Shown in pieces: positions 4,649-41,087 of a stretch of 64,000 nucleotides of DNA; position 1 is the first letter of the stretch; each line of letters begins with the position of its first letter. Origin of the DNA: Streptomyces iakyrus (GTDB lineage: Bacteria; Actinomycetota; Actinomycetes; Streptomycetales; Streptomycetaceae); the NCBI RefSeq assembly GCF_000717055.1, contig NZ_JNXI01000009.1, positions 62,001 through 126,000 on the forward strand. Direction: 5' to 3'. A program made the position numbers and the translations under genes. Under the pieces are notes generated by a model, which ran no database searches, was not told the origin of the DNA, and saw only the letters and a program-made list of their open reading frames with translations.

Positions 4649-5842
4649 TCACTTGTTGATCTTGGTGACCTGGCCGGCGCCCACGGTCCGGCCACCCTCA
4701 CGGATGGCGAACTTCAGGCCCTCCTCCATGGCGACGGGCTGGATGAGCTCCACCTTCATCTCGGTGTTGTCACCCGGCATGACCATCTCGGTGCCCTCGG
4801 GGAGGGTCACCACGCCGGTCACGTCCGTCGTACGGAAGTAGAACTGCGGGCGGTAGTTGTTGAAGAACGGCGTGTGGCGGCCACCCTCGTCCTTGGACAG
4901 GATGTAGGCCTGCGCCTCGAACTCGGTGTGCGGGGTGACCGAGCCCGGCTTGATGATGACCTGGCCGCGCTCGACGTCCTCGCGCTTGATGCCACGGAGG
5001 AGCAGACCGACGTTCTCACCGGCCTGGCCCTCGTCGAGGAGCTTCCGGAACATCTCGATACCGGTGACCGTGGTGGTGGTCTTCTCGGTCTTGATGCCGA
5101 TGATGTCGACGGTCTCGTTGACCTTCAGGACACCACGCTCGATACGGCCGGTGACGACCGTACCGCGACCGGTGATCGTGAAGACGTCCTCGATCGGCAT
5201 GAGGAACGGCTTGTCGACGTCACGCTCGGGCTCCGGGATCGCCGTGTCGACGGCGTTCATGAGCTCGAGAACCGAGTTGCCCCACTCCTTGTCGCCCTCA
5301 AGGGCCTTCAGAGCGGAGACCTTGACGACGGGAACGTCGTCGCCCGGGAACTCGTACTCGGAGAGGAGCTCACGGACCTCGAGCTCGACGAGCTCCAGGA
5401 TCTCCTCGTCGTCCACCATGTCGGCCTTGTTCAGGGCGACGACGATGTACGGAACGCCGACCTGGCGGGCCAGGAGCACGTGCTCCTTGGTCTGCGGCAT
5501 CGGGCCGTCGGTGGCGGCGACCACGAGGATGGCGCCGTCCATCTGCGCCGCACCCGTGATCATGTTCTTGATGTAGTCCGCGTGACCGGGGCAGTCGACG
5601 TGGGCGTAGTGACGCGTCTCGGTCTGGTACTCGACGTGCGCGATGGAGATGGTGATACCGCGCTGGCGCTCCTCAGGAGCCTTGTCGATCTGGTCGAAGG
5701 CCGAGGCCTCGTTCAGGTCCGGGTACGCGTCGTGCAGCACCTTGGTAATGGCGGCCGTGAGGGTCGTCTTACCGTGGTCGATGTGACCGATGGTGCCGAT
5801 GTTGACGTGCGGCTTAGTCCGCTCGAACTTCGCCTTCGCCAC
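4649..5842 (-). CDS. tuf: Elongation factor Tu
   Basis: This 397-residue GTPase delivers aminoacyl-tRNA to the ribosomal A site. Seen directly: P-loop GHIDHGKT (residues 19-26), the switch region with [14 protein letters not shown], the guanine-specificity motif NKAD, and C-terminal beta-barrel domains ending [10 protein letters not shown]. It is the last gene of the rpsL-rpsG-fusA-tuf order. The 156-nt gap after fusA contains a stem-loop and leaves room for the separate tuf promoter described in streptomycetes. The usual GHVDHGKT is GHIDHGKT here, as is common in actinobacteria. Length is normal. A second tuf-like gene, as in some Streptomyces, is not in this window. Confidence 0.98.
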
Positions 5843-5920
5843 TGGGGTCCTCCTGTGGAGTGGTTCTGGTACGCCTTACTCATCGGCGCCAGGTGATCTT
5901 TGCTGGAAAGCCCGGGCCCC

Positions 5921-5955
5921 GGGGCACTCTCACCGCGATTGCGGCGGAATGCCCC
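5921..5955 (-). other. Stem-loop in the fusA-tuf gap
   Basis: On the minus strand TGGGGC-type and CGCCGC arms pair across an AATC loop (GGGGCA/TGCCCC and CACCGC/GCGGCG on the plus strand, one G-U pair in RNA). There is no clear U-tract. It could be a partial terminator or processing site between fusA and tuf. Confidence 0.45.
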
Positions 5956-5998
5956 TCAAGGCTCCGGAGTCAAGCCTACGGCGTGTAGACGCGGTGCG

Positions 5999-8125
5999 TT
6001 ACTCGCCCTTGGCCTTCGCGATGATCTCCTCGGCGACGTTCCGGGGAACCTCGGCGTAGGAGTCGAACTGCATGGAGTAGCTCGCACGGCCGGACGTCTT
6101 GCTGCGCAGGTCGCCGACGTAGCCGAACATCTCCGAGAGGGGCACGAGGCCCTTCACGACGCGGGCACCGGCCCGCTCCTCCATGGCCTGGATCTGACCA
6201 CGGCGGGAGTTGATGTCGCCGATGACCTCACCCATGTAGTCCTCGGGCGTGGTGACCTCGACGGCCATCATCGGCTCAAGGAGCACGGGGGACGCCTTAC
6301 GCGCGGCCTCCTTGAAGGCCTGCGAACCGGCGATCTTGAACGCGAGCTCGGAGGAGTCGACCTCGTGGTAGCCACCGTCGATGAGCGTGACGCGGACGCC
6401 CGTCATCTCGTAGCCGGCCAGGATGCCGAACTGCATGGCCTCCTGCGCACCGGCGTCCACCGAAGGGATGTACTCCTTCGGGATGCGGCCACCGGTGACC
6501 TTGTTCACGAACTCGTAGGAGGCGTCGCCGCCCTCGATCGGCTCGATCGCGATCTGCACCTTGGCGAACTGGCCGGTACCACCAGTCTGCTTCTTGTGCG
6601 TGTAGTCGACGCGCTCGACGGCCTTGCGGATCGTCTCACGGTAGGCGACCTGCGGCTTGCCGACGTTGGCCTCGACCTTGAACTCACGGCGCATACGGTC
6701 GACCAGCACCTCGAGGTGCAGCTCGCCCATACCACCGATGATGGTCTGGCCGGTCTCCTCGTCCGAGTGGACCTGGAAGGACGGGTCCTCCTCGGCCAGG
6801 CGCTGGATGGCGACACCCAGCTTCTCCTGGTCACCCTTGGACTTGGGCTCGATGGCGACCTGGATGACCGGCGCCGGGAAGTCCATGGACTCCAGGATCA
6901 CCGGGTTCTTGTCGTCGGACAGCGTCTCACCGGTGGTGGTCTGCTTCAGGCCCATGACGGCGACGATGTCGCCGGCGCCCACCGACTCGATCTCCTCACG
7001 CTTGTTCGCGTGCATACGGTAGATCTTGCCGATGCGCTCCTTCTTGCCCTTGACGGAGTTCAGCACGGCGGTGCCGGACTCCAGGCGGCCCGAGTAGACC
7101 CGGACGAAGGTGAGCTTGCCGAGGTGCGGGTCGCTCATGATCTTGAACGCGAGCGCGGCGAGGGGCTCGTCCTCCGACGGCTTGCGCGCGATGACCTGCT
7201 CCGGGTCCTTGACGTCGTGGCCCTCGATGGCCTCGACGTCGAGCGGGGTGGGCAGGTAGCGCACGACCGCGTCGAGCAGGGGCTGAACGCCCTTGTTCTT
7301 GAACGCGGTGCCGCAGAACACGGGGGTGACGGTGGTGCCGCCGCCCTTGCCGGACGCGATCGTGATACGGCGGATCGCGGCGTAGAGCTGCTCCACGGTG
7401 GGCTCGGTGCCCTCCAGGTACAGCTCCATCAGCTCTTCGTCGTTCTCGGCGACGGCCTCGAGCAGCTTGCCGCGGTACTCCTCGGCAGCCTCGGCGTGGG
7501 TGTCCGGGATGTCGACGGTGTCGTACATCTCGCCCTTGGTCGCCTCGGCCGACCAGACCAGGGCCTTCATCGTCACGAGGTCGATGACGCCCTTGAAGTC
7601 CGCCTCCGCACCGATCGGCAGCTGCATGACCAGCGGCTGCGCGCCCAGGCGGTCCGAGATCATGTCCACGCAGCGGTGGAACTCGGCGCCGGTACGGTCC
7701 AGCTTGTTGACGAAGCAGATACGCGGCACGCCGTAACGGTCGGCCTGACGCCACACCGTCTCGGACTGCGGCTCGACACCGGCGACACCGTCGAACACCG
7801 TCACGGCACCGTCGAGCACACGCAGGGAGCGCTCCACCTCGACGGTGAAGTCGACGTGACCCGGGGTGTCGATGATGTTGATGGTGTAGTCGTTGTCCTC
7901 GAGCGGCCAGTGACAGGTGGTCGCAGCAGACGTGATCGTGATGCCACGCTCCTGCTCCTGCTCCATCCAGTCCATGGTGGCGGCGCCGTCGTGGACCTCA
8001 CCGATCTTGTACGACACGCCCGTGTAGAACAGGATCCGCTCGGTGGTGGTCGTCTTGCCCGCGTCGATGTGGGCCATGATCCCGATGTTGCGGACCTTGG
8101 CCAGGTCAAGTGAAGTGGTAGCCAT
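5999..8125 (-). CDS. fusA: Elongation factor G
   Basis: This 708-residue ribosomal translocase GTPase has the P-loop [19 protein letters not shown] near residue 20, RGITIT in switch I, DTPGHVDF, and NKLDR for guanine recognition, followed by domains II-V ending in a canonical EF-G C-terminus ([16 protein letters not shown]). Start ATG 8125. It follows rpsG by 39 nt and precedes tuf, the normal str operon arrangement. Length and motifs are standard, so it is the main EF-G rather than a ribosome-protection paralogue such as TetM. Confidence 0.98.
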
Positions 8126-35825: not shown

Positions 35826-36038
35826 CTAGAACAGGGGCAGTTGGCCGGGGAAGTCCGGGACCGTGTAGCCGTCCAGGGACGGTTGCTCGGGGCCCGGGCG
35901 GGCCTGACGGCGGGAGCCCGGGCACGAGGTGAGTTCGCCGTGCTCGCGGGCGCCGGGAGGGTCGTGGCGCGCGTACCGCCCGGCGACGACGGCGATCTCG
36001 CGGCGGCACTCGGGGCAGACTCTGCGACGGGAGGACAT
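35826..36038 (-). CDS. Small Cys-containing hypothetical protein
   Basis: A 70-residue protein from ATG 36038: an N-terminal CPEC pair (Cys8, Cys11), His25 and Cys39 that could bind zinc, and a hydrophobic C-terminus PDFPGQLPLF. Composition and small size fit a conserved streptomycete protein, but I cannot name it. Stop codon 28 nt from the convergent NAD(P)-binding gene. Confidence 0.6.
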   Translation of the reverse strand: MSSRRRVCPECRREIAVVAGRYARHDPPGAREHGELTSCPGSRRQARPGPEQPSLDGYTVPDFPGQLPLF

Positions 36039-36424: not shown

Positions 36425-37252
36425 TCAGCTCACGTCGACGTAGTCGGCCGCGCTGGTGGCCACGCCCGTCGTGGAGTTGCCGTAGTACACCCAGCGGTAG
36501 TAGCCGTCGACCGAGGCGGTGACCGTGGTCTTCAGCCCCCCGGTGCTGCTGGTGGTGGCCTTCTTGAGCGTCTTGTAGGTGTCGGTGCCCTTGGCGCGGA
36601 ACTGGAGGCTGACCGTACGGCCGCTGTAGGCGTCGTACTTCTTCGTGCTCCAGTTCGCCCGGGTCAGCTTGCCCGTGACGGTGATCGGCTTGCCCTTGGT
36701 GACCGGCTCCGGCGTGGCGTTGGTGGTGATCTTGGCCGCGCGCTTGAGCTGGGCGGTCGCGGACCGCGTCTCCAGCTCCCCGGTCTTGAGGCCGCCGTCG
36801 GCCTTCCACAGCCGCAGCGCGACGCCGACCTTCCAGGTCGTGGCGTCGCTGTTGGAGTCGACGTGCTCCTGGCTCGGGTGCGGGTCGATGTAGAGGTTGC
36901 CCTCGCAGCGAGCGTGCTTGGAGTCGGTCTCGTAGCAGGTGTAGCTGCCCGGCTGGATGAAGTTCTCCCCCGTGTCGGCCGCCGTCTTGATGGTGCCGCG
37001 GTAGAGGAAGGGGTACGCGTCGTAGCGGGAGGGGTCTGAGGTGCTGTATCCGGAGGGCAACGCGATATTGAAACTGACGGGCGGCTCCACCGTCTGCGTT
37101 GTACCGACGACGATCGGCTTGCCCTTGTTGATGACGATGTCCGACACGGTGATACCGGTATCCGCCGCCTGAGCCGCCGGCGCGTTCAGCACCGAGAGCC
37201 CCAACGCCCCCACGAGCGTGGCCACCGCGGCGGTTCGTCTGCCTGTTTTCAT
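36425..37252 (-). CDS. Secreted protein with C-terminal Ig-like domain
   Basis: A 275-residue secreted protein: signal peptide (MKTGRRTAAVATLVGALGLS, cleavage after AAQA near 29). The mature N-terminal half (ITVSDIVINKGKPIVVG; FLYRGTIKTAADTGENFIQP) looks beta-rich. The C-terminal 110 residues (residues about 165-275) match the Streptomyces Ig-like domain: A-T-P-E-P-V-T-K-G-K-P-I-T-V-T-G-K-L, S-L-Q-F-R-A-K-G-T-D-T-Y-K-T and D-G-Y-Y-R-W-V-Y-Y-G. Homologues are often labelled calcium-binding protein without proof. No membrane anchor. Function unknown. Confidence 0.78.
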   Translation of the reverse strand: MKTGRRTAAVATLVGALGLSVLNAPAAQAADTGITVSDIVINKGKPIVVGTTQTVEPPVSFNIALPSGYSTSDPSRYDAYPFLYRGTIKTAADTGENFIQPGSYTCYETDSKHARCEGNLYIDPHPSQEHVDSNSDATTWKVGVALRLWKADGGLKTGELETRSATAQLKRAAKITTNATPEPVTKGKPITVTGKLTRANWSTKKYDAYSGRTVSLQFRAKGTDTYKTLKKATTSSTGGLKTTVTASVDGYYRWVYYGNSTTGVATSAADYVDVS

Positions 37253-37456
37253 TCACACCTCATCAGGAAAATGCCGTTACAAGAGGCGGCAGCGTATCCG
37301 ACGAGTTCATGCCCCTCGACGAGCTCCCGGCAGAAGTTGTGAACCACCCGTCGGCGGGCTGCCGTTGGGGTGCTTGCGTGGGTGGGCCCGGAGGCGGAGA
37401 GATCATGCTCACCCCCGGCGGACGCCCCGGGGGACACGCGTTCGGATGACGGAAAG

Positions 37457-37490
37457 CCCCTCTCGCCTGCATCTCCGCAGGTGAGAGGGG
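37457..37490 (-). terminator. Likely ancestral tRNA-Tyr terminator
   Basis: A 14-bp stem with one G-U pair (CCCCTCTCgCCTGC ...) lies directly outside the partial tRNA-Tyr copy. On the minus strand CTTTCC follows. If the element inserted between the tRNA and its flank, this would be the original terminator, now 3.5 kb from the gene. Confidence 0.55.
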
Positions 37491-37500
37491 GTCTTCCCCA

Positions 37501-37555
37501 GTGTGGCGGCGCCAGAATTCGAACCTGGGAAGGCTGAGCCGGCAGATTTGCAGTC
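37501..37555 (-). repeat. Partial tRNA-Tyr copy (distal attachment-site repeat)
   Basis: Matches 41003-41057 at 53 of 55 positions (differences at 37516 and 37550). It covers the acceptor 3' strand, T-arm, variable arm and part of the anticodon arm, then similarity ends. One mismatch changes the GTA anticodon to GCA. Not a functional tRNA. Confidence 0.88.
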
Positions 37556-37845
37556 CCCTCGCGAGCAACCAGCAATCCAGCCCGTGACCTGCGCACTGGT
37601 TCTCAAGGCGGCTCGCTCCGCCCACCGCGCGCCGCCCGGTCCCCGGAGGCAAGGCGGTACCCAGACATGTATCAGGACCGGTGGAGGCGGTTCGTCACTA
37701 CGCTCGCGCTCGGTTTCGGCTGCGGAACGGTTGCAGGCGTGACCCGAGCCGATCCGTGCTCTTTCTGCAGAGGTGAAGATGATCGCGTCCAGGGTGTTCC
37801 GCCGGACCGCTGGTCCGCCACGGCGGTCCGGCTGGTGCACAGGGC

Positions 37846-37872
37846 AACGGAGGGCCCTGAGGGCCCTCCGTT
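37846..37872 (-). terminator. Terminator of the I36-like gene
   Basis: Perfect 12-bp stem AACGGAGGGCCC-TGA-GGGCCCTCCGTT, 15 nt after the stop. The stretch 37556-37845 left of it shows no supported gene. Confidence 0.85.
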
Positions 37873-37886
37873 GTTCGCGTGAACGG

Positions 37887-38351
37887 TCAGCAGCTGTCCG
37901 TCCAGCTGTGGGAGGAGATGTTGTCGTTCACGGACTCGCCATAGCCGTCCCACCAAGGCAAGCCGTGGCTGAAGACTTCGCGTCCGAGTGTCAGGTCCAA
38001 CCACATGTCGCCGTTGCCGAGGCAGGCGTACACACCGCTCTGGTCCTCGTTGTAGTACAGGTCGACGTCGTCGTAGCCGCCGGCGTATCCCCGGTTCTCC
38101 ACCGAGGAAGCGAGGTTGCGCATGTGCGGGCACCCAGGGCCCGGATAGTCCCAGTTACGGTTGTTCCCTTCCCATGCACAGTGGCCGCCGCCTCGGTAGG
38201 GGTCGATCCAGGCGTGGAGCTTGCCGTCTGCCGCGGCCGCGGTGAGCGTGCGGGCCTCCGCCGGGCTCGGTTCAGCGGCCTGAGCCGTGGGGGCGGCGAG
38301 TGCGACGGCCGTCAGGGCGACCACGCCGGCGAGTGAAGCGAACTTGCTCAT
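37887..38351 (-). CDS. Secreted peptidase-inhibitor I36-like protein
   Basis: A 154-residue secreted protein: signal peptide MSKFASLAGVVALTAVALAA with cleavage near AQA-A. The mature domain has Cys residues in GHCAWEGNN, GCPHM, VYACLGNG and a final WTDSC, and ends with V-N-D-N-I-S-S-H-S-W, the typical closing strand of small crystallin-like/inhibitor I36 domains of streptomycetes. These proteins are exported, disulfide-rich and sometimes inhibit metalloproteases. Inhibition is a family possibility, not shown here. Cargo of the tRNA-Tyr element. Confidence 0.7.
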   Translation of the reverse strand: MSKFASLAGVVALTAVALAAPTAQAAEPSPAEARTLTAAAADGKLHAWIDPYRGGGHCAWEGNNRNWDYPGPGCPHMRNLASSVENRGYAGGYDDVDLYYNEDQSGVYACLGNGDMWLDLTLGREVFSHGLPWWDGYGESVNDNISSHSWTDSC

Positions 38352-38389
38352 GTCCTGTCCTCTCGTTCTGTTGTGTGCTGTCGGGTTGA

Positions 38390-39364
38390 TCAGCCGCGGC
38401 GGACGATGTCGCGGGCACGGCTGAGCGCCTTGTGTTCGAGCAGGGCGCGGTTCTTCACCTCAGTGGGATGGCGGGAGTCCATCCGCTGGCGATGCGCACG
38501 GCTCAGCTCTCGGAGCGTTGCGGCCAGGCCTGTTGATCGCGCGCACTCGGCCTCGGCCTGAGCCGTGGCGAACTCATCCGCCTCGGGGCGAAGCGCGAAC
38601 TGTTCACGTGTCTTCTGAGGCATGTCATAGGGGAGGCCCCGTTCATGCATGCAGGTGGCCCACTGCCGGGTTACGGGACGAAGTTCGGGATCAGCCACGA
38701 CCGCCGCCGTGGTCGTTCGGTCAAGGGCCTCGGTGACCTTCTTGGCCCGGTACCAGGCAGGCAGGTCGGTGTAGAGCTCACGCTGGGCGTGGGAGACGCA
38801 TCCTTTGTCGCTGTGCCGGATCCTGCCCATCCCGGGGACGTCAGCTTCCAGCCCTTCCGGGGTCGGCCCGTTGAGTGCCGTGATCGCGGCCGCTTTGCGG
38901 TCGGCGGAGAGCCGGTCGAAATAGCGGCGGTTGGGGTCGTTGCGAGCCGATGCCTCCCGGCGTTCTCGGATGCCGCGGCCGTAACCGTTCGCGGCGGCCC
39001 ACTGCTTGTCGTCGATGACGTACGGGAACCGGCGCTCCAGAGGTTCGGGGAGTTCCGGGGTGACCCAGAAAGAGAAACCCTGTCTTTTCATACAGTCACG
39101 CGTGAGAATCTTCTCCGCCTGGACCAGAACTTCTCGTTCCGCCATGGTGAGGTGTCGTGACGCTTCCTGCTGCCCCTGAGATTTCTGCGAATCGTTGGGT
39201 TCGCAGGCCGTACTCCAGGCGACCACCACGGACAGGAGCGCAACAAGGAACACCTTTCGGCCAGAACGCCGGATGCGATGGGCGCGCCAGGTTGCGTCGC
39301 TGTTGCCGGCGAATCGCCGGGATATGCGGTCATGGGCTTTGTGCAGGCGAAGTTGCGCGGACAT
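38390..39364 (-). CDS. Probable membrane-anchored lipoprotein of unknown function
   Basis: A 324-residue protein. After a long basic N-terminus comes a hydrophobic stretch (VFLVALLSVVVAWSTAC, residues 38-54) ending in a lipobox-like WSTAC, so it may be a lipoprotein with an unusually long leader or may start further downstream. The mature part is charged and has conserved-looking Cys pairs (DCMKRQGF, GCVSHAQRELY, TCMHERGLPY, ECARS) repeated with Met/His/Arg, a pattern I have seen in hypothetical exported streptomycete proteins. It is 38 nt upstream of the I36-like gene on the same strand. Divergent from the LysR gene. Confidence 0.6.
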   Translation of the reverse strand: MSAQLRLHKAHDRISRRFAGNSDATWRAHRIRRSGRKVFLVALLSVVVAWSTACEPNDSQKSQGQQEASRHLTMAEREVLVQAEKILTRDCMKRQGFSFWVTPELPEPLERRFPYVIDDKQWAAANGYGRGIRERREASARNDPNRRYFDRLSADRKAAAITALNGPTPEGLEADVPGMGRIRHSDKGCVSHAQRELYTDLPAWYRAKKVTEALDRTTTAAVVADPELRPVTRQWATCMHERGLPYDMPQKTREQFALRPEADEFATAQAEAECARSTGLAATLRELSRAHRQRMDSRHPTEVKNRALLEHKALSRARDIVRRG

Positions 39365-39571
39365 TAGTGGCGGCCCCCTGTGTCACCATCCCCGGATCGG
39401 TCAGGGGACATTCGCAACCGTCTGTCGACTGATGACAAAGTGCCGTCCCCCGCGCATTGACTATCACATGGTCGACTCAGCCATGTCACCGAAGCCGGGA
39501 GACGTTATGTCTGCTGATCGATAAGGAACTGATTATGGCTGCACGTGGCACCGGCGAAAGGGTTCACGGTA

Positions 39572-40498
39572 ATGGGAGCTTCCCTGGCGAGGGAACCGAG
39601 CATCCATCAGCTTCGGCTCTACCTCACCCTGAGCGAGGAGCTTCATTTCGGAAACGCCGCGGCGCGCCTGTTCATCACTCAGCCGGCACTCAGTCAGCAG
39701 ATCAGAGAGCTGGAGAAGCGCCTGGGGGTGCGTGTGATCGAGCGCACGAGTAGGACGCTCGCCCTGACCGAGGAAGGAAGAGCCCTGCTTCCTGAAGCCC
39801 GTGCCGTGGTCGAAGCCGTCGATCGGCTGAAGCGTGTCGCCGGTGCGCAGCAGCGACAGATCTCCGGCCGAGTCATAGTGGGAACCATCGGTGCTGAGGC
39901 CTCAATGGCGCACACCCGCGCAGTGCTGGGCCTGCTCAGAGATCGCCACCCTCAACTGACCCTGCGTCTGATCAACCTCAGTTTCGCCGATCACATGACG
40001 GCGCTGGCACATCAGGAGGTCGATGTGGTTTTCCTCCGTCCTCCCGTGACGGACGACATGGAACTGCACCACCTGGCCACCGAACCGCGAGTGGCCTGCC
40101 TCCCCGCCGACCACCCGTTAGCGGCCTTTCCCCAACTTACTCTGGCCCAACTCGCCGGCATCCCCGTGGTCGGCATGCCCGAGCAGGTTCCACGGCTGTG
40201 GCGGGACTTCTGGGCGGTTGACCCACGCCCGGACGGCAGCCGCGTTCGATACGGTCCCGTGGTCACCGACATGGAATCGCTGATGCACACGGTGGCTACC
40301 GGAGAAGCCATGTACTTTCTGCCGGCGGCCGCCCGCGAATACTTCCCACGCCCAGGTATCCGATACAGCACGGTGGTTGACCTCTCGCCCTCGACATCCG
40401 CTCTCGCCTGGCTACGGCGAAGACGTTCCGAACCCACGATCAGAGCTGTGCGCCATGCTGCGCGACACGTCACCTTCAAAGCTGAAGCCGGCCGGTAG
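39572..40498 (+). CDS. LysR family transcriptional regulator (TTA codon)
   Basis: Start ATG 39572 gives 308 residues. The LysR HTH is LRLYLTLSEELHFGNAAARL followed by FITQPALSQQIRELEKRLG (residues 13-50), then the effector-binding domain. Leu183 is encoded by TTA (40118-40120), the codon read only by bldA tRNA in streptomycetes. So this regulator is probably made in late growth. The 207-nt gap to the divergent lipoprotein-like gene would hold its usual LysR binding site, but no clear T-N11-A motif stands out. Cargo of the tRNA-Tyr element. Confidence 0.88.
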   Translation: MGASLAREPSIHQLRLYLTLSEELHFGNAAARLFITQPALSQQIRELEKRLGVRVIERTSRTLALTEEGRALLPEARAVVEAVDRLKRVAGAQQRQISGRVIVGTIGAEASMAHTRAVLGLLRDRHPQLTLRLINLSFADHMTALAHQEVDVVFLRPPVTDDMELHHLATEPRVACLPADHPLAAFPQLTLAQLAGIPVVGMPEQVPRLWRDFWAVDPRPDGSRVRYGPVVTDMESLMHTVATGEAMYFLPAAAREYFPRPGIRYSTVVDLSPSTSALAWLRRRRSEPTIRAVRHAARHVTFKAEAGR

Positions 40499-40542
40499 AC
40501 ACGTCCCGTTGCTGAGGTTGAACATCTCGCGAGGGCATCCGG

Positions 40543-40857
40543 ATGATGGCCGCTGAGCGGTTCGTCCGGGGTGAGCTGGGCCCGATGATCGCGAAGGAGT
40601 TACGGGTCAGTGTCCGGGCGGTCCAGCGGTGGCGGCGGTGCGGGGAACCACTGAGGCTCCGGCTCCGGGAGACTCATTATGATCTTCGTCACGCTGCGGT
40701 GTCCACCTGGCTTGGCTCCGGTGCCGAGCCTCAGCTTGTCGCCGAGCGCGCTGGCCACAGCGTGGCCCTGCTGTTCCGCGTGTACGCCAAGTTCCGGAAG
40801 GACGGAGACGAGGCAGCGAATGCCAAGATCTCTGCGCGCCTGAAGGGGCACGGCTGA
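40543..40857 (+). pseudogene. Transposase/integrase chimeric remnant
   Basis: A 104-codon frame made of two unrelated pieces. Residues 2-32 (AAERFVRGELGPMIAKELRV, then SVRAVQRWRR) look like the N-terminal HTH of an IS630-type transposase. Residues 44-85 (THYDLRHAAVSTWLGSGAEP, then QLVAERAGHSVALLFRVYAK) are the C-terminal core of a phage/plasmid tyrosine integrase with the second catalytic Arg, His and the Tyr. The integrase N-terminus and first Arg are lost. It also has a TTA codon (40600-40602). Probably an IS insertion followed by deletion killed the integrase. Confidence 0.7.
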
Positions 40858-40952
40858 ACGCGTGGACGGCCGTCCACGCCCCGTCCACGCAGCCCGAGAG
40901 CGGTCGAACACGCGACACAGTGAGACAGTGGACTGATCTCGTGACCCCATGA

Positions 40953-40997
40953 CGAAGGGCCCGTGACCTGCGAAGATTGCAGGTCACGGGCCCTTCG
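40953..40997 (-). terminator. Terminator of tRNA-Tyr (element-borne)
   Basis: A perfect 19-bp stem (CGAAGGGCCCGTGACCTGC) with a 7-nt loop, 9 nt after the tRNA 3' end. By position it came with the element. Confidence 0.85.
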
Positions 40998-41005
40998 TTC
41001 CCGTG

Positions 41006-41087
41006 TGGCGGCGCCAGGATTCGAACCTGGGAAGGCTGAGCCGGCAGATTTACAGTCTGCTCCCTTTGGCCGCTCGGGCACACCGCC
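41006..41087 (-). tRNA. trnY: tRNA-Tyr (GTA)
   Basis: 82 nt with a long variable arm: acceptor GGCGGTG/CGCCGCC, anticodon GTA at 41051-41053, T-loop GTTCGAATCC. CCA not encoded. Its 3' half is repeated 3.5 kb to the left. Confidence 0.96.

Follow-up and report, generated by a model that had tools for sequence, protein, structure and literature searches.

Probable remnant of an integrative and conjugative element at the tRNA-Tyr gene of Streptomyces iakyrus, with an accessory gene block between its attachment sites

In a 64,000-nucleotide stretch of the Streptomyces iakyrus genome (contig NZ_JNXI01000009.1, positions 62,001 to 126,000; hereafter "the window"), 3.5 kb of DNA lie between an intact tRNA-Tyr gene and a second copy of the 3' part of that gene. 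This interval is very probably the decayed remnant of an actinomycete integrative and conjugative element (AICE) whose tyrosine integrase targeted the 3' half of tRNA-Tyr. Decay has left a stub of the integrase gene and a pair of attachment sites; between the latter sits a block probably derived from a chromosomal accessory locus, encoding a LysR-family regulator, a lipoprotein, and a secreted protein resembling peptidase inhibitor family I36 ("I36-like"), present either as cargo that outlasted the element or as a later capture. The individual features are collected in Table 1.

Table 1. Features of the insert and its borders, in window coordinates.
Feature	Coordinates	Strand	Remarks
Native 3' flank of tRNA-Tyr with terminator-like hairpin, displaced by the insertion	37449-37500	minus	Continuous with the tRNA 3' end in relatives
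Distal attachment-site copy (tRNA-Tyr 3' part)	37501-37555	minus	53/55 identical
Dispersed Streptomyces non-coding repeat	37595-37646	plus	Eight copies compared, with 87-93% identity
Start of a second secreted-protein gene that looks I36-like (upstream region and first codons)	37656-37824	plus	Rest deleted relative to the G305 locus
I36-like secreted protein, 154 residues, intact frame	37887-38351	minus	Signal peptide by eye; predicted beta-gamma-crystallin fold
Lipoprotein, 324 residues, intact frame	38390-39364	minus	Lipobox by eye; confident, mostly helical model
LysR-family regulator, 317 residues, intact frame	39545-40498	plus	Divergent from the lipoprotein gene
IS630-like transposase gene fragment, internal (helix-turn-helix part), cut on both sides	40528-40648	plus	Between LysR gene and integrase stub
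Tyrosine integrase C-terminal stub	40678-40857	plus	Last ~59 of 454 residues
Terminator-like perfect inverted repeat of 20 bp, brought by the element	40952-40998	not assigned	Just downstream of tRNA-Tyr
tRNA-Tyr (GTA), intact	41005-41087	minus	3' part is the integrase-proximal attachment site; sole full copy found in the genome

The interval is bracketed by a direct repeat of 63 nt (37498-37560 vs. 41000-41062; 92% identical, spacing 3502), one copy of which forms the end of the intact tRNA gene. The original prediction, made from the letters of the window, had described a 55-bp repeat with 53 identities around 3.5 kb; the repeat and tRNA calls confirm it, and 53 of 55 bases agree by eye between 37501-37555 and 41003-41057. 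When 41005-41059 was compared with both strands of the window, no 55-mer exceeded 34 matches apart from the segment itself and the distal copy (51/55). In the whole genome, the tRNA-Tyr sequence matched only itself and the distal copy (31/31 candidates scored). Because no further copy exists in the window or the genome, a chance origin of the repeat can be excluded. A search of the insert region against Rfam returned the tRNA and one weak match below the cut-off. The GC content of the insert is 65.2%, vs. 69.1% for the window.

In relatives, the two sides of this interval are joined (below, G-numbers designate genomes compared and L-numbers loci fetched for comparison). In G001, G009, and G016, the left flank of the window, from 37436, 37452, and 37449, respectively, to 37555, runs directly into tRNA-Tyr. 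The site was aligned in fourteen loci, namely G338 and 13 of the 35 loci from the G001-G036 set. A single alignment in 11 of them reaches from the native flank (starting at 37448-37454) through the tRNA 3' part (ending at 37560), the flank match being weak in G002, G003, and G021 because the overall identity there is only 79%. As to the other three, G027 and G036 match in the tRNA part only, and the tRNA-Tyr of G026 at this place lacks part of its length. Since the flank is continuous with tRNA-Tyr in relatives such as G009, the 3.5-kb interval is an insertion. From the same continuity it follows that the insertion has separated the native flank and its hairpin from the tRNA by 3.5 kb, and that the present tRNA 3' end and the inverted repeat after it arrived with the element. 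This inverted repeat falls inside a stretch common to the elements in L057-L062.

The integrase stub ties the insertion to a family of elements that use the same site. Its positions 40678-40842 correspond to residues 396-450 of the 454-residue tyrosine recombinase of L062, with 91% amino acid identity. For comparison we took the 12 best matches to the stub DNA in the genus (~19-20 kb each; the far end is not seen in all, e.g., L060 and L063), in which the integrase ends are 76-92% identical to the stub at the amino acid level. Ten of these loci have an integrase of nearly full length; in L059 and L064 it is partial or broken. An intact tRNA-Tyr stands beside it in six (L058, L060-L063, L066), and in four others (L057, L059, L064, L068) only a 38-52-nt tRNA 3' piece was matched; no tRNA piece was found beside the integrases of L065 and L067. 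The tRNA piece occurs at both ends in 8/12 loci. Several full-length integrase relatives belong to 14-18 kb elements of other Streptomyces with FtsK/TraB-type genes, and relatives of the L062 TraB (FtsK_SpoIIIE) occur in seven of the 12 loci: L062 itself, L060 and L066 at 82-86%, and L057, L058, L065, and L067 at only 25-28% identity. A wider protein search scored 7998 integrase candidates and yielded 3684 relatives; among the 120 matches listed, the names shown are Streptomyces except for one Actinacidiphila. Twelve plasmid records matched, none of them an SLP1 record; the best reached 50% identity across most of the integrase query. Comparable remnants exist: G153 has 3.2 kb between tRNA pieces and a 30-residue integrase scrap, and L064 has 3.5 kb between two tRNA pieces with a broken integrase, though the locus shows no intact tRNA next to it. 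Separately, the L062 element, which occupies tRNA-Tyr in G221, carries a DpdA-like gene (deoxypurine in DNA; 5320-6246, E 1.2e-68).

These comparisons bear on whether the interval might be ordinary chromosome, flanked by a chance or paralogous piece of tRNA. We found no point in favor of this idea, and the empty sites in relatives, together with the same tRNA piece at both ends of eight loci with this integrase family, leave it practically no room. The proposal of an integrative-element remnant at an SLP1-type site is thus upheld: the interval is absent where the site is empty, and full-length integrases of the same family adjoin tRNA-Tyr or its 3' piece elsewhere.

Transfer genes have been lost from the insert, as had been predicted. 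The L062 TraB has no tblastn match in the whole 64-kb window at E ≤ 1e-5, and Pfam found no FtsK match among the four insert proteins compared with it. There is likewise no window match to the L062 Rep-like protein, which is called Rep only tentatively (0 Pfam hits); the search did not extend to other Rep types. A complete integrase gene is absent, residues ~396-454 of 454 being left (other integrases were looked for only by Pfam on the insert genes). From the distal copy toward the tRNA, the remaining parts are the dispersed repeat, the gene scrap, the I36-like gene, the lipoprotein gene, the LysR gene, the IS630-like fragment, the integrase stub, and the inverted repeat. The integrase scrap, the LysR gene, and the two exported proteins of the original prediction are therefore all present, and the IS630-like fragment, which it had missed, is additional. 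This fragment matches an inner part of a related transposase frame in L055 (87.6% over 121 columns) and lies in frame with the integrase stub, forming one open frame of 104 codons (40543-40857); we read no function into the fusion.

Decay of this kind is already known. PMC9513070 describes a decayed AICE with a partial integrase, accessory genes, flanking direct repeats, and empty sites in other strains, all of which recur here. The published one sits in a glycosyltransferase gene, whereas the present one sits in tRNA-Tyr, includes an IS630-like fragment, and holds genes that match a chromosomal locus elsewhere. The site itself also has a precedent: PMC1934918 lists S. coelicolor Gi-11 (SCO4615-4631) as a "Possible SLP1 insertion" at Tyr-tRNA GTA, and SLP1 is given as an integrase subfamily of AICEs in PMC3218068. 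Like that insertion, ours lies at tRNA-Tyr GTA within a flanking repeat; it differs in measuring 3.5 kb with a repeat of 55-63 bp, vs. 15.9 kb with a 112-bp repeat (1 mismatch) for Gi-11/SLP1 in PMC1934918. The remnant had been called undescribed, which holds for this copy but not for its kind; it is one more case.

Where did the accessory block come from? Window positions 37848-40493 match a locus on the chromosome of Streptomyces sp. 378 (G305) at 83.5% identity, and the extra piece 37656-37824 matches at 76.7% (L069 11294-11468). The likeness to I36 of the truncated gene in this piece was judged by eye (0 Pfam hits). A profile search of genome contigs with the I36-like alignment found one locus, that of Streptomyces sp. 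378 (NZ_JASKMS010000001.1). In G256, DNA 78% identical to window 37861-40474 lies between protease-like and phosphatase-like genes, ~0.18 Mb from the end of a 7.4-Mb contig; the G305 block is surrounded by chromosomal-looking genes (both sets of neighbors were named by eye). The tRNA-Tyr of G305 holds a different, 28-kb insert with relatives of the integrase, TraB, and the Rep-like protein and with none of the three block genes. A further secreted-protein gene of the G305 locus is mostly deleted in the window, so the block itself has lost sequence. Relatives of the genes flanking the G305 block occur on contig C7 of G000 and at 8.90-8.92 Mb of the 9.41-Mb chromosome of G009; because their order and orientation differ from those in G305, neither a donor site nor a scar can be read there.

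We surveyed 35 loci from 36 same-genus relatives (G001-G036, with G010 left out), 34 of which hold a full tRNA-Tyr. The same integrase family stands beside it in four of the 34 (G011, G013, G017, and G020; 53-80% amino acid identity), and a second tRNA piece occurs without such an integrase in two (G024, G029). As separate observations, a tRNA-Tyr copy in G026 (L125 14711-14780) adjoins a YajQ gene and lacks a stretch in its middle, and the outer context of the site varies: a relative of a 70-residue gene (window 35826-36038) lies 78-88 bp from tRNA-Tyr in G007, G022, and G033 and 6.8 kb from it in G009. Just beyond the distal repeat, the window has a gene for an exported-looking protein (36425-37252), for which there is no space in G007, G022, and G033.

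Several points weigh against the reading of the interval as an AICE remnant. Neither the block proteins nor the cassette DNA was found in the tRNA-Tyr elements examined, namely the 12 loci and the 28-kb insert of G305, so the phrase "cargo of this element" lacks direct support. This integrase family and a second tRNA piece are both missing from the remaining 28 of the 34 surveyed relatives (with less than 4 kb of downstream sequence available in G001, G008, G028, G030, and G032), and an occupied tRNA-Tyr is therefore not the rule. The label "SLP1-type" rests on the insertion site, because no sequence named SLP1 stood in the integrase comparison. Lastly, positions 37556-37594 and the joints 40499-40527 and 40649-40677 fall outside all assigned parts.

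Within the remnant reading, the block may have been true AICE cargo at integration, kept after the core genes were deleted, as the original prediction held. Its place between the attachment sites and its three intact frames agree with this, as do the published decayed AICEs that, according to PMC9513070, retain cargo along with a partial integrase. Against kept cargo, a search for the same gene set in related tRNA-Tyr elements came back empty (the 12 loci had been chosen by their match to the stub and do not always include both ends), the block occurs at other chromosomal loci, and it brings along the scrap of the next gene of the G305 locus, as a piece of chromosome would. We regard kept cargo as plausible, at somewhat less than an even chance. 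Alternatively, the block may have entered the remnant later, by IS-mediated or illegitimate recombination, and never have traveled on a conjugative element; we lean slightly toward this explanation. The IS630-like fragment sits at the joint between block and integrase stub, and the chromosomal locus most like the block belongs to a strain whose tRNA-Tyr holds a different insert. However, no target duplication or clean joint was found, nor was a donor site readable in G000 or G009, and because the IS piece is an internal fragment, that joint could equally be a deletion scar. Because the block matches the G305 chromosomal locus and is missing from every tRNA-Tyr element examined, we consider capture no less likely than kept cargo.

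The AICE-remnant reading suggests the following history. An AICE with a tyrosine integrase for the 3' half of tRNA-Tyr would have integrated and rebuilt the gene with its own 3' end and terminator, pushing the native 3' end and hairpin 3.5 kb away. Deletions and an IS630-type insertion may then have left the integrase stub and the two attachment sites, with the block, from a chromosomal accessory locus, either outliving the element as cargo or being captured during the decay. Lacking an integrase, the remnant has no means of excising on its own; an element arriving later with the same integrase might mobilize it. The stub side has probably persisted because the only tRNA-Tyr gene in the genome takes its 3' end and terminator from it.

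We asked whether the carried genes show constraint, using three-taxon parsimony (window, G305, G256) and one-sided binomial comparisons with the neutral expectation. On the window branch, the nonsynonymous/synonymous ratios are 0.11 for LysR (P 3e-10), 0.39 for the I36-like gene (P 0.036), and 0.83 for the lipoprotein gene (P 0.45); on the G305 branch, they are 0.21, 0.54, and 0.25, respectively. These counts point to strong constraint on LysR and marginal constraint on the I36-like gene, with the lipoprotein gene not distinguishable from neutral. For the latter, the two branches differ (P 0.046), and pairwise ratios of 0.34-0.47 show it to be constrained over its longer history, only the window branch looking relaxed. 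The counts cannot date this change, because the window branch includes time before the block reached the site. The suggestion that the cargo genes are under selection thus stands clearly for LysR and marginally for the I36-like gene, whereas no selection was detected on the lipoprotein gene on this branch.

Relatives of the LysR protein (72-81% amino acid identity) occur at other loci. In four of the five fetched (L101, L102, L104, and L105, not L103), they lie by eye near differing small secreted-looking proteins on the opposite strand; the copy in L105 is interrupted. At several of these loci, conservation extends to the sequence upstream of LysR (window 39457 on). The dispersed repeat is a 44-52-bp sequence found in many Streptomyces genomes (copies include L003 1501-1545 and those in L093-L099). 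By eye, it adjoins an integrase fragment in L003 and lies near a GntR-like gene in L099; L003 with its copy matched no Rfam family.

The lipoprotein gene is followed by an I36-like secreted-protein gene, adjacent and on the same strand, in 50/52 loci (L025-L036, L160-L199). The I36-like protein of the window itself has no match to PF03995 at E ≤ 1 in Pfam, in contrast to 20 of the 38 members of its alignment, which match at E ≤ 0.01, and a 58% identical relative (P0011) is named I36 by NCBI; its predicted structure has a beta-gamma-crystallin-like fold. The lipoprotein model has no credible PDB match (best E 0.35, by Foldseek alone). In the parts of the open-licence literature that we could consult, neither the pair nor this family at tRNA-Tyr was the subject of any paper listed. 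We tentatively propose, at close to even odds, that the pair is an undescribed two-gene surface module widespread in Streptomyces, in which a membrane-anchored, mostly helical lipoprotein, possibly of a new fold, partners a secreted I36-like inhibitor or toxin-like protein, e.g., as anchor, receptor, or immunity protein.

Taken as a mobile-element remnant, the interval is a further example of AICE decay; it also suggests a route by which a genome's single tRNA-Tyr gene can come to take its 3' end and terminator from a dead element. The conserved gene pair is the part worth following and the more useful lead: a lipoprotein of no named family keeps company with a secreted crystallin-fold protein in 50/52 loci, a partnership that can be tested in a genus whose secreted proteins are a subject of study. 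In S. iakyrus this pair stands beside a divergent LysR gene, between the attachment sites of a mobile element.

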